The notes below the pieces were generated by a model. The model was given only the letters and a program-made list of their open reading frames with translations. It did no database searches and was not told the origin of the DNA. Of a DNA stretch of 63,816 nt, positions 14,020 to 20,835 are shown piece after piece. The stretch's first letter is position 1. Every line of letters starts with the position of its first letter. This stretch comes from an uncultured Halomicronema sp. (GTDB lineage Bacteria; Cyanobacteriota; Cyanobacteriia; Phormidesmidales; Phormidesmidaceae): positions 1 to 63,816 of the forward strand of contig CALCCA010000098.1 in the NCBI GenBank assembly GCA_937899725.1, written 5' to 3'. Both the position numbers and the translations under genes were made by a program.

Positions 14020-15150
14020 ATGCACATTCTGGTGATTCATTCAGAGTATAAAACTCGTCGTCGTCTTTATCAGTTGCTCACTGCTGAAGGCTATGACGTC
14101 ACCCTCTGGATGGATGATCCTGAGACGATCGATCTAGCTCAGTTAAACGAGCCCACGCTAATTATTGAGGAATGGAAACAAGAAGCCAAGGCTGGGGGTC
14201 TCTCTGCTTGGCTGAGCCATAAAGCCGGCACTGACGTTCCTCCTATTTTTTGTCTGATGCTGATTCCTCAAAACAGTCTGGCGCAATATACGTCTGTGCT
14301 GGCCAACGGTGCAGATGACTGGCTATCGCATCCGGTTGACCCTGTCGAGCTAAGGGCGCGGGTGCTCGCGGGCAAACACATTTTAAAAATCAAGCAAGAG
14401 CTGCAAGATCAAACTCGGCTGCTGAGAGCTGAGCTGGCCGAAGCCGAGGCCTATGTGCGATCGCTGCTCCCCAATGACCTGACCGAAAAAGTGCCGATCA
14501 ATGCGCGGTTTATTCCCTCTCGGTTGCTGGGGGGCGACTGCTACGACTTCTACTGGCTCGACCCTGATTATTTGGTGATTTATCTGCTGGATGTCTCTGG
14601 TCATGGGCTGGGCTCTGCTCTGCTGTCGACGTCGGTGCTCAATATGCTGCGATCGCAGTCGCTGCCCGACGTCAACTTTTATCGACCGGAAAAGGTGCTC
14701 CAAGCACTCAACGAAACGTTCCAGATGAACGACCAAAATGAGAAGTATTTCACCATGTGGTATGGCGTCTACAATCGCGCCAATCGGCAACTGCTCTATG
14801 CGAGTGCCGGCCACCCCCCCGCCGTGTTGATTTATAGCCAAGACCAGCAGCCGCAAACCATCGAGCCGCTGAAAACCTCAGGCCTGCCCATTGGCATGTT
14901 GCCAGACATTCAATACCACTGGCAGCGGTGTTTTATTCCCCCGGCCAGTCGGCTGTATCTCTTTAGCGATGGCGTTTATGAGATCAAGCAGCACGACCAG
15001 ACCATGATGAATCTGAATGACTTTTTGGATATTTTGTCAACTCATACTGCTGATCAAACAATTGATGACATTTTGAAGCAAGTCAACGATCGCACCATGG
15101 ATCGAACCTTCTCAGATGATTTGTCGCTGCTCGAAGTTCATCTAGATTAA
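14020..15150 (+). CDS. Pseudo-receiver fused to SpoIIE/PP2C-type phosphatase
   Basis: Two domains: a CheY-like receiver (about 1-120), a helical linker and an RsbU/SpoIIE-type Ser/Thr phosphatase (about 150-374). Phosphatase motifs are intact: GGDCYDFYW, DVSGHGLGSAL, SAGHPPAVL, LFSDGVYE and FSDDLSLLEV. Such enzymes usually dephosphorylate anti-sigma-factor antagonists in partner-switching cascades. The receiver is degenerate: the acidic pocket reads HSE (residues 7-9), the phospho-acceptor position is Glu50/51 in LIIEEW, and the conserved lysine is His104 (LSHPVDP). Classical Asp phosphorylation is therefore unlikely. No anti-sigma or STAS partner gene lies nearby. Confidence 0.9.
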   Translation: MHILVIHSEYKTRRRLYQLLTAEGYDVTLWMDDPETIDLAQLNEPTLIIEEWKQEAKAGGLSAWLSHKAGTDVPPIFCLMLIPQNSLAQYTSVLANGADDWLSHPVDPVELRARVLAGKHILKIKQELQDQTRLLRAELAEAEAYVRSLLPNDLTEKVPINARFIPSRLLGGDCYDFYWLDPDYLVIYLLDVSGHGLGSALLSTSVLNMLRSQSLPDVNFYRPEKVLQALNETFQMNDQNEKYFTMWYGVYNRANRQLLYASAGHPPAVLIYSQDQQPQTIEPLKTSGLPIGMLPDIQYHWQRCFIPPASRLYLFSDGVYEIKQHDQTMMNLNDFLDILSTHTADQTIDDILKQVNDRTMDRTFSDDLSLLEVHLD

Positions 15151-16374: not shown

Positions 16375-16836
16375 ATGCTTTCAACCTTTAGTCAAACGGC
16401 TGCTCACGCGGATGGTCGGTTTCTCAATGATCAAGAACTACAAGGCTTAGAGGCCTATGTCGAATCTTTTGCGGCGCGCACTCAGACCTATCAGACGTTG
16501 AGCAGTCAAGCGGATGAATTGGTGCTTCGGTCTTTGCGTAAGCTGGCTCAGACCCATCGTCAAGAAGTGGTCACCCACAGTGCCAAATGCAAGCGCGATA
16601 TGGATTTTGCCCTGAAAGAAATTGCACGGGCCGTGCTGTTAGATGAGTCCGAGGGGTTCAAGCAAGATTTCTCTTTATGGATGGAAAATATCACCCGAGC
16701 CGTTCATACCAATAATGCGGCGTCGCGAGCCTACCGTTGCCTCCAGGCAGAGATTTGCACAGCCCTCCCCGCTAACCATGCCGCATTAGTGACGCCGTAC
16801 CTAGATGAGCTGATCACAGCATTTTCTGGACACTGA
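16375..16836 (+). CDS. Orphan phycobilisome-family (phycobiliprotein-like) globin
   Basis: A 153-residue all-helical protein of the phycobilisome alpha/beta family. The N-terminus resembles the subunit start (LSTFSQTAAHADGRFLND). The chromophore-site motif Cys-x-Arg-Asp is present as KCKRDM (Cys72, Arg74, Asp75), at the place of Cys82/84 in allophycocyanin and phycocyanin. It is shorter than a standard subunit (about 161 aa), and helix sequences such as FALKEIARAVLLDE diverge from rod or core subunits, so it is probably not a structural antenna protein. No partner subunit, lyase or linker gene is adjacent. The next gene is a GAF-containing histidine kinase on the same strand. A bilin-binding or bilin-handling role is inferred. 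Confidence 0.72.
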   Translation: MLSTFSQTAAHADGRFLNDQELQGLEAYVESFAARTQTYQTLSSQADELVLRSLRKLAQTHRQEVVTHSAKCKRDMDFALKEIARAVLLDESEGFKQDFSLWMENITRAVHTNNAASRAYRCLQAEICTALPANHAALVTPYLDELITAFSGH

Positions 16837-17304: not shown

Positions 17305-20300
17305 ATGACGTGCTCACGAGCTGTGACGGCTGCTCGCGAGCTGGCCGTGCCCCTTGTGTCTGCCCTCTCAAGTGCTTTGGATAAGTCAGACGCCATGCCC
17401 CCTGATCCAATGAGACGAATGATCGAAGAGACCACAGCCGCGTCTTCGGTGACCTCTGAGCTATTGTGTCAGACATTAGATGCGATGCCGACAGCCGTCT
17501 ACATCAAGACCAGGGAGCACCGCCTGGTATTTGTGAATGATGCTTGTTGTCAGCTCTTGGGGCGATCGCGCCGGGAGCTGCTCACCGTTTCTGAGGTAGA
17601 AATTTTATCGACAGCGCCGGGCCAGAGCCTGTCGCATCAAGACGAAGCCGTTTGGCAAGGGCAATTAGCAACCGCCGCGACTGAAGCTGCGATCCTAGTC
17701 GTGCCGATATCAGCCGCCGCAAACGGGCCGTCGCTGACTCGCCGCACCCAGCTCGCCGCTGATGGTCAAGCGCTGCTGTGTTTTTTGGAGCCGGTAGTAA
17801 CGCCGCCACTGACCGCTAGCACTGCCAACCCTTCACTCTGGCAAATGCCTCAACTGCAGGCGCTTTTAGCCAACGTGCCCGCTGTGATTTATCAGCTCTG
17901 TCGGCAGCCGGGTGGGCAGCTGCAGTTCACCTTTGTCAGTCCCGGTGCCGATGAAATTTTTGGCGTCGCGTCTAGAGCCATTCTGGTGAACGCGGAGCAA
18001 ATTTTGCAGTTGTTGCACCCGCTTGACCGCCCCACGTTTGACGACTCTTTAGCCGCTTCAGCCGCAACGTTGACACCCTGGTATTGGGAAGGCCGCTACT
18101 ACCAGCCTGATGGCAAAGTGGGTTGGATTCAAACCGCCGCCCGTCCCCAGCCTTTGCCGGGGGGGGCAGTCGTTTGGGACGGCTCGATTATGGATGTGAC
18201 GAGTCGCAAACAAGTGGCCGCAGCCACTATTGAACAAGCGGTGATGGCTCAGGCGCTAGCGGATAATGAAACGCGTTTTCGCACCCTCACCGCAGCGATT
18301 CCGGGGGCGATTGTGCAGCTCCGGGTGCACAATCGCGACTACGCGATCGATTTTGTCAGCGATCGCATCGAAGCCATTACCGGCCTCCCGCCCGCGTTGC
18401 TCATGGCCGATGCCCACGCCTGGTTTGAGCAAATGCATCCGGCTGACTATCAGCAGCTACAGGCAACTATCAATACCGCTGTCACGACAGTGAGTGCGTG
18501 GCACTTTGAAGGGCGACTTACGACCCGCTCGGGGGAAACCCGGTGGTGGCGAATTGATGCGCTGCCAGGGCCGCAAGCGGGGGGCGACATCGTTTTTTAT
18601 GGCGTCGTGCTAGATGTGACTGACCGTAAAACGATTGAAGAAGCCTACCAAGAACACGATCGCCAGTTACGGATGGCGCTGCAGGTCTCGGGCATGGGGG
18701 TTTGGACTTGGGATATGGCCACCGATCAAATGGCGTGGACGACGGAACCCGGTACGTTGTTTGAGGTCTCGGCGGTCAGCTTTTGCGACACCTTTGATGC
18801 CTATCTGCAAAATGTGCACCCGAGCGATCGCGACTTGGTCAAAGCCGCCGTGAGCCAAGCCGTCAAAGATGGGCAAGACTATCAAATCGAATACCGGCTG
18901 CTGTTGGGTGACGATACTGTGCTTTGGATTGGTGAACGGGGCGGGGTGTGGCGAAACCTTGATGGGATGCTGTTGGGCCTCATGGGCACAGTGCTGGATA
19001 TCACCGATCGCATGACGGCAAGTGCCGCCCTGAAGGAAAGTGAGGAACGCAATCGCACGTTAATCAACAACATTCCAGGGGCAGTCTATCGCTGCAAAGC
19101 GGATAAAGACTGGACGCTGATTTTTCAGAGTGATGCGATCTTTGACGTGACTGGCTATGCCATTGATCATCCGATTCATCACGAAGACTGGCGACTGATT
19201 CATCCCGATGATCTTGATCGCGTCGATCACGACATTACTGCCGCGATCGCTCAGCGCCAGCCCTTCGAGGTGGAATATCGCTTGCTACATGCCGATGGTG
19301 GCATTCGCTGGGTGCTCGAAACCGGTCAGCCGATCACGGACGCGACGGGTACCGTCCAGTTAATTGACGGCGTGTTGACAGACATTACCCGTCGTAAGCA
19401 ATCGGAGACCCGTCTACAAGATCTCGCGAGTCGCGAGGGGCTGATCAACCGCATCTCGACTCAAATCCGGGAGTCTTTGGAACTACAGCCCATTTTGCAA
19501 ACGACGGTGCAAGCGGTACGGCAACAGCTGGCCACTGATCGCGTTGTGGTCTATCGCTTTTGCCCCGATTGGACGGGGGAAGTGATTGTCGAAGATGTGG
19601 CATCGTCCTGGCGGTCAACCCTGGGGGAAATCGGCACCGACAATTGTTTTCCGGGCGGCTTGGCCCAGTATTACGAAGCGGGCCAAGGCCGCGCGATTGA
19701 TGATATTTATCAGACTGGGTTTGACCCCTGCCACCTGCAGTATCTGGAAACCCTGCAGGTGCGCGCCAACCTGATTGTGCCAATCCTCCTGAAAAAGCAG
19801 CTGTGGGGGCTTTTGATCGCCCATGAATGCCGCGGCCCTCGCCATTGGACCGATAGCGAGATCGAGCTACTGGCCGCGCTGGCGGGGCAGGTGGGGTTGG
19901 CCATTGGGCAGGCTGACCTGTTTCAACAGGCGACGGAAAACGCGACTCGGGCGCGACAACAAGCCGCCGACCTAACCGCGACCCTGGCAGAACTCCAGCG
20001 GACTCAAGCCAAACTGGTACAGACCGAAAAGATGTCAAGTCTGGGGCAGCTAGTCGCGGGTGTAGCCCATGAAATCAACAATCCCGTCAGCTTTATTGAT
20101 GGCAACATTTTGCATGCCGCCGACTATGCTCAAGACTTGCTTAAGTTGACTGAGCAGTATCAGGTGACCTATCCCAATCCTCCAGAAGCGTTAGCACAGC
20201 TAATTGCCCAGGTCGATCTCGAGTTCCTCGCTGCTGACTTTCCCAAACTGTTGAACTCAATGCGGGTGGGGGCAGACCGCATTAAGAGCATCGTGGCTTC

Positions 20301-20835
20301 CCTCCGCACCTTCTCGCGCATGGATGAAGCCGAAATCAAGGCCGTCAATATTCATGATGGGCTAGACAGCACGCTGATGATTCTGCAGCATCGTCTCAAA
20401 GCGGATGGCGGTCGTCCCCAAATTACCCTGACCCGACGCTACGACGATTTACCTCTAGTGGAATGCTATGCCGGCAAGCTCAACCAAGTATTTATGAACT
20501 TGATTAGCAATGCGATTGATGCGATCGAAGAGCAGATCGCTGCTGACAATCAAGGGCCGCTGCCAACCATCAGCATTACGACCGAGGCGCTGTCACCGGA
20601 GCAGATTCGCATCAGCATTAGTGACACCGGCTCAGGCATGACTGCAGCCAAACGCCAGCGCATTTTTGAACCCTTTTATACGACGAAACCAATTGGCAAA
20701 GGAACGGGCATTGGTCTTTCGATCAGCTATCAAATCGTGACCGAGCATCATCACGGCACGTTAGAGTGTGAATCGCAAGCCGGGCAGGGCACCACCTTTC
20801 ACGTTACGATTCCGGTGCAGCAGGGCACCACCTAA
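17305..20835 (+). CDS. PAS5-GAF sensor histidine kinase with DXCF-type cyanobacteriochrome GAF
   Basis: Large soluble kinase of 1176 residues. Approximate order: PAS 50-150, PAS 184-302, PAS 322-442, PAS 452-568, PAS 581-699, GAF 712-872, coiled coil, HisKA and HATPase. The H-box is LVAGVAHEINNP (His922). The ATPase shows NLISNAIDAI, ISDTGSGM and FEPFYTTKPIGKGTGIGLS. The GAF has the phytochrome-class signature DIYQTGFDPCH with the canonical bilin cysteine Cys809 followed by His810, and also DNCF (Cys781), the second cysteine of DXCF cyanobacteriochromes, which typically sense blue versus green/teal light. No receiver or DNA-binding domain is attached. Start is uncertain: GTG-like or ATG starts at 17305, 17395 or 17410 only trim the N-terminus. 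Confidence 0.88.
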   Translation: MTCSRAVTAARELAVPLVSALSSALDKSDAMPPDPMRRMIEETTAASSVTSELLCQTLDAMPTAVYIKTREHRLVFVNDACCQLLGRSRRELLTVSEVEILSTAPGQSLSHQDEAVWQGQLATAATEAAILVVPISAAANGPSLTRRTQLAADGQALLCFLEPVVTPPLTASTANPSLWQMPQLQALLANVPAVIYQLCRQPGGQLQFTFVSPGADEIFGVASRAILVNAEQILQLLHPLDRPTFDDSLAASAATLTPWYWEGRYYQPDGKVGWIQTAARPQPLPGGAVVWDGSIMDVTSRKQVAAATIEQAVMAQALADNETRFRTLTAAIPGAIVQLRVHNRDYAIDFVSDRIEAITGLPPALLMADAHAWFEQMHPADYQQLQATINTAVTTVSAWHFEGRLTTRSGETRWWRIDALPGPQAGGDIVFYGVVLDVTDRKTIEEAYQEHDRQLRMALQVSGMGVWTWDMATDQMAWTTEPGTLFEVSAVSFCDTFDAYLQNVHPSDRDLVKAAVSQAVKDGQDYQIEYRLLLGDDTVLWIGERGGVWRNLDGMLLGLMGTVLDITDRMTASAALKESEERNRTLINNIPGAVYRCKADKDWTLIFQSDAIFDVTGYAIDHPIHHEDWRLIHPDDLDRVDHDITAAIAQRQPFEVEYRLLHADGGIRWVLETGQPITDATGTVQLIDGVLTDITRRKQSETRLQDLASREGLINRISTQIRESLELQPILQTTVQAVRQQLATDRVVVYRFCPDWTGEVIVEDVASSWRSTLGEIGTDNCFPGGLAQYYEAGQGRAIDDIYQTGFDPCHLQYLETLQVRANLIVPILLKKQLWGLLIAHECRGPRHWTDSEIELLAALAGQVGLAIGQADLFQQATENATRARQQAADLTATLAELQRTQAKLVQTEKMSSLGQLVAGVAHEINNPVSFIDGNILHAADYAQDLLKLTEQYQVTYPNPPEALAQLIAQVDLEFLAADFPKLLNSMRVGADRIKSIVASLRTFSRMDEAEIKAVNIHDGLDSTLMILQHRLKADGGRPQITLTRRYDDLPLVECYAGKLNQVFMNLISNAIDAIEEQIAADNQGPLPTISITTEALSPEQIRISISDTGSGMTAAKRQRIFEPFYTTKPIGKGTGIGLSISYQIVTEHHHGTLECESQAGQGTTFHVTIPVQQGTT

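Follow-up and report, generated by a model that had tools for sequence, protein, structure and literature searches.

The PAS-GAF histidine kinase encoded at positions 17305-20835 of the window, that is, the whole 63,816-nucleotide stretch analysed here, is probably a light sensor whose GAF domain belongs to the DXCF cyanobacteriochromes and, quite likely, passes through the full two-cysteine photocycle proposed below. As judged from the sequence, this reading, which was also that of the original prediction, is well supported because the GAF aligns with TePixJ at both cysteines, groups with cyanobacteriochrome GAFs in a tree, keeps its motifs in orthologs and occurs in a genome with bilin-synthesis genes. 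The features concerned, together with two genes upstream of the kinase, are as follows.

14020-15150, + strand: receiver-like plus SpoIIE/PP2C (RsbU-type) phosphatase, 376 aa (Pfam)
16375-16836, + strand: orphan phycobilisome-family globin, 153 aa (Pfam), with CKRD at 16588-16599 (aa 72-75)
17305-20835, + strand: PAS-GAF histidine kinase gene, ATG start, 1176 aa open reading frame
17455-19404, + strand: PAS-type array of probably five domains, about aa 51-700 (Pfam PAS_3, PAS_8, PAS_4, PAS)
19450-19914, + strand: GAF domain, aa 716-870, probable DXCF cyanobacteriochrome (Pfam, TePixJ alignment, tree)
19639-19650, + strand: DNCF motif, aa 779-782, with Cys781 equivalent to TePixJ Cys494 (alignment)
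19729-19734, + strand: Cys809-His810, equivalent to TePixJ Cys522-His523, expected site of ring-A attachment (alignment)
19915-20040, + strand: linker from GAF to kinase, aa 871-912, probably helical as judged by eye (sequence alone)
20068-20070, + strand: His922 of AHEINNP, expected phospho-acceptor (motif position; HisKA just below the cut-off)
20476-20820, + strand: HATPase_c, aa 1058-1172 (Pfam, E 8.9e-26)

Domain architecture

The Pfam matches agree with the predicted order of five PAS domains, a GAF domain and a histidine kinase. PAS_3 matches in four stretches and PAS_8 at aa 53-93, so that five PAS-type domains are a fair and probable count. There is a single GAF match (aa 726-867, E 1.4e-24), and HisKA scores slightly under its cut-off (26.4 versus 26.9 bits). 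The true start of the protein may lie somewhat downstream of the annotated ATG, because the alignment shows later starts for the full-length orthologs.

The two-cysteine motif and the bilin pocket

Both motifs named in the original prediction are present in the reading frame: DNCF with Cys781, and DPCH (aa 807-810) with Cys809 and His810, the two cysteines being 28 residues apart. A search of solved structures with phmmer gave 99 matches at E <= 0.001; among the best 60 of these 99, which were examined, the red/green-type structure 6BHN ranks first (E 2.9e-38), 6OAP second and TePixJ 3VV4 third (E 4.8e-32). That a red/green-type domain outranks TePixJ speaks against the DXCF reading. The alignment with 3VV4 is free of gaps and places Cys781 on Cys494, Cys809 on Cys522 and His810 on His523. 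The alignment with TePixJ that had been proposed as a check thus puts both cysteines on the bilin-ligating positions. In TePixJ, Cys522 is described as carrying ring A and Cys494 as bonding C10 of the bilin (PMC6955287), and the second cysteine of DXCF domains is also credited with acting in the isomerization of phycocyanobilin to phycoviolobilin (PMC11284453). Asp492, Phe495, Tyr503 and Asn535 of TePixJ are kept as well, and two of these, Asp492 and Asn535, are described as lying near the bilin.

Three positions differ: His498, Trp499 and Gln526 of TePixJ are Gly, Leu and Tyr in the kinase GAF, and the TePixJ paper describes His498 and Trp499 as holding the B-ring propionate. The same positions are likewise unlike TePixJ in three DXCF GAFs of Thermosynechococcus (L145, L146 and L149; L denotes loci and G genomes), so these changes speak only weakly against function. 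They do bear on the photocycle. The domain could be a DXCF-type bilin GAF in which phycocyanobilin is kept or only partly isomerized, or in which the second bond is weak, giving colours that depart from the classic pairs of blue/green or blue/teal; this would fit the three substitutions, the incomplete bilin isomerization described for Tlr0924 (PMC4067208) and the occurrence of DXCF GAFs in various lineages (PMC11284453). However, the DXCF motif is complete, typical DXCF GAFs are described as converting their bilin (PMC11284453), and the three Thermosynechococcus domains are also unlike TePixJ at these sites, so that a departure of this kind appears improbable, if well worth keeping in view. 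For the preferred reading, the blue and green/teal colours are an expectation from the class and not a result, since TePixJ His498 and Trp499 are replaced by Gly and Leu here.

The Gln found at TePixJ position 507 was considered as a sign against function and dropped; the only role described for Arg507 is a contact made by a symmetry-related molecule. An AlphaFold model for the kinase GAF with L082-L084 was of low confidence (mean pLDDT 45.4, pTM 0.34).

GAF domains of the genome and their phylogeny

The genome itself yielded 44 GAF matches, of which 20, including that of the window, passed the filters and 24 did not. Cysteines occupy both columns in eight of the 20, one of them (L005) with CL instead of CH; besides the kinase GAF, at least six GAFs of the genome carry both motifs (L002, L003, L047, L052, L057 and L058). 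The remark in the original prediction that both cysteines are absent from generic GAF kinases is therefore too simple for this genome.

A tree was built from 66 GAF domains, three rows having been removed beforehand: that of the window, 19 others from the same genome, 29 from relatives, 11 from the Thermosynechococcus genome G052, two from Nostoc and four PDB references. G052 is assigned to Thermosynechococcus by its PixJ GAF, which is 100% identical to 3VV4. The kinase GAF joins the G052 DXCF domains L145, L146 and L149 with moderate support, in a 28-row group (83/91, not starred). This lies apart from the XRG references, which form a separate clade (100/99) that does not contain the kinase GAF. 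TePixJ itself is placed no more closely than in a group of 53 rows (92/99, not starred), which also includes some GAFs that lack the cysteine pair (L050, L054 and L064). A single DXCF clade is not to be expected, because DXCF GAFs are described as having an early origin and as being spread across various lineages (PMC11284453).

By homology and motif, the domain is a GAF of the cyanobacteriochrome/phytochrome superfamily with the canonical Cys and His and a second Cys in Asp-Xaa-Cys-Phe. It has the DXCF Cys and reads GTDNCF where the XRG rows show W-x-D-x-x-L, the pattern by which the XRG motif is defined (PMC11284453). Elsewhere in the genome, a GAF in the XRG-side clade (L048, contig C73, about 77942-78433; 100/99) has a Cys-containing insert before TADTHF and may be a sensor of the insert-Cys type.

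Conservation and loss among orthologs

The nearest named record is an uncultured Halomicronema MAG, with a GAF 97% identical to that of the window; NCBI places Halomicronema in Nodosilineales. Eleven close orthologs were compared, namely the window and those of G002, G012, G005, G004, G015, G011, G021, G318, G001 and G003. Nine of them, the window counted, keep both D-x-C-F and C-H, down to about 67% identity. In the G001 ortholog (L018) Asp replaces the canonical Cys, and that of G003 (L020) has DICC and CY instead.

Rates of change were compared between the GAF and the rest of the protein, which is mostly PAS region, by Fisher's test in seven of the 21 ortholog pairs. The GAF has fewer differences than the rest between the window and G012 (32/155 versus 346/969, p 1.7e-4) and between G012 and G011 (41/155 versus 387/968, p 1.3e-3). 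It has more between G001 and G004 (31/155 versus 104/973, p 0.0019). No difference was found for window-G004 (p 0.09), window-G001 (0.78), window-G003 (0.47) or G012-G003 (1.0). Since the GAF is about as conserved as the kinase part alone, for example 75.5 versus 76.5% with G004, and thus not clearly more conserved, much of the contrast reflects a fast-changing PAS region. When changes are polarized by the window, raw counts give 12 in the GAF and 24 elsewhere for G001, and three and 22 for G004. These counts would fit a constraint on the GAF that hangs on the canonical Cys, from one loss event only.

In G002, the Halomicronema MAG (L071/L082), a stop codon within the GAF and additional frame breaks interrupt the kinase gene, and in G005 (L073) the gene is split into two frames; it is therefore either dispensable or mis-assembled in these genomes.

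A further alternative is a cyanobacteriochrome-derived GAF that no longer senses light, its cysteines being inherited remnants and the domain itself serving a structural role or binding another ligand. The canonical Cys is missing from G001, and outside the clade one or both cysteines are absent from near relatives (L022, with EH, and L031, with neither), so loss is possible in this part of the GAF tree. Retention of both motifs in nine of the 11 close orthologs across the identity range given above, and faster divergence of the GAF in the single lineage where the canonical Cys has gone, nevertheless make a loss in the window protein unlikely. A chance two-cysteine match in an ordinary GAF is scarcely credible: Asp and Cys do occur at the DXCF position in GAFs without the canonical CH (L050, L005), but the homology to TePixJ is gap-free, the orthologs conserve the motifs, and D-x-C-F-x26-C-[HY], found once among window reading frames of at least 60 aa, has an expectation of 2e-5 per protein of this length under a composition model that ignores homology.

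Bilin supply and proposed mechanism

The genome encodes one heme oxygenase (E 6.1e-90) and, from the ferredoxin-dependent bilin reductases, a single family member (E 9.7e-78). Bilin attachment, the photocycle, its colours, control of the kinase and the role of the PAS domains are inferred, and so is photosensing by the protein. In the DXCF scheme, Cys809 would hold a phycocyanobilin-derived chromophore through ring A, and the pocket would probably isomerize all or part of it to phycoviolobilin. During photoconversion, Cys781 would form and release a second bond, to C10, with a dark state expected to absorb blue or violet light and a photoproduct absorbing green or teal. The linker (aa 871-912) could then carry the light-induced change to the kinase that follows it.

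If spectra confirm this scheme, the Halomicronema group would gain a multi-PAS kinase with a blue/green-type light input. The sensing GAF would stand directly before the kinase, and an effect of light should be easily measured. The G001 protein, a natural variant without the canonical Cys, offers a ready test of the role of attachment.

Upstream genes and a possible module

The globin has a Phycobilisome domain by Pfam and scores far under the ApcA cut-off (35.5 versus 270 bits). In an alignment its CKRD falls on the CLRD of allophycocyanin alpha, and residues Lys71 to Asp75 are invariant in all five kinase-linked copies. Of the 291 genomes of the class, 158 have relatives at E <= 1e-14. The window globin is a candidate BBAG; in cyanobacteria these globins include slr0149, some of them have CXRD, and their functions are described as not yet known (PMC10151467). 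In the phosphatase, the receiver-like domain is below the Pfam cut-off (19.9 versus 30.2 bits) and degenerate in the window; at the Asp position of its Nostoc homologs the window has Glu and G004 and G001 have Asp.

Kinase, globin and phosphatase genes occur together in five of six genomes of the genus (G000, G001, G002, G004 and G005, the G002 contig covering no more than the final part of the phosphatase gene), the exception being G003. The kinase orthologs of G011 and G012 lack globin and phosphatase neighbours; in G015 and G021 the contigs are not long enough to show them, and G318 was left out. Phosphatase homologs at E <= 1e-60 are present in 32 of 39 related genomes, this one included, and the association with the kinase may therefore be mere linkage. 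In G003, G011 and G012 the best phosphatase homolog and the kinase are either on different contigs or far apart.

Among 29 globin neighbourhoods, a sensor-type protein lies within three reading frames in seven (L115, L119, L124, L126, L127, L133 and L178); the other 22 showed none within that distance by motif, HMM or Pfam, Pfam having been applied to six globin neighbours. For the globin relatives L119, L126 and L178, the gene upstream encodes a GGDEF-type sensor with GAF domains, and Pfam finds EAL for L119 and L126 only.

In this genus the three genes could form one light-signalling module, in which the DXCF sensor and a BBAG-type bilin-binding globin with CKRD jointly set the RsbU-type receiver-PP2C phosphatase, but this is doubtful. 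Were it true, it would be the first role for a globin family described as lacking known functions (PMC10151467). The window globin gives a concrete place to seek the function of phycobiliprotein-like orphan globins.

At two Nostoc loci (L083 and L084), a hybrid kinase with an EPCF/CH GAF adjoins a gene that is RsbW-like by eye and a receiver-PP2C gene, followed in L084 by a gene that is STAS-like by eye; the genes look like a partner-switching set. Their receiver-PP2C proteins are 42-43% identical to that of the window. This parallel is a lead only, because identity in the GAF is 45% and the kinases differ in type.

Comparison with known light sensors

Among the titles listed in a literature survey that covered DXCF cyanobacteriochromes, TePixJ, cyanobacteriochromes with partner switching or phosphatases, BBAGs, slr0149, Leptolyngbya and Halomicronema, none deals with the window kinase, which does not prove absence. 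The TePixJ GAF (PDB entries 3VV4, 4FOF and 4GLQ) has in common with the kinase GAF both ligating cysteines, His523, Asp492 and Asn535, in a motif region without gaps. The two domains are 38.3% identical and differ at TePixJ His498, Trp499 and Gln526, and TePixJ is labelled in the PDB as a methyl-accepting chemotaxis protein, in contrast to the histidine kinase of the window.

The Thermosynechococcus domains L145, L146 and L149, which from their map positions we take to be Tlr1999, Tlr0911 and Tlr0924, share with the kinase GAF the 28-row group and the DXCF motif at 39-44% identity. L145 and L149 have CY and L146 has CH, and other pocket positions differ. The red/green (XRG) GAFs of 6BHN, 3W2Z and 5DFX, presumably NpR6012g4 and Slr1393g3, have the canonical CH of the kinase GAF and are 37-44% identical to it, but they lack the DXCF Cys and Phe, with His or Tyr and Leu in their places, and form their own clade.

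BBAG globins such as slr0149 resemble the window globin in being phycobiliprotein relatives outside the main subunits, with a CXRD motif in some members (PMC10151467); a difference is that the window globin adjoins kinase and PP2C genes. The window kinase very probably adds a further member to a class that is already well known, and its gene neighbourhood is the only potentially surprising part.
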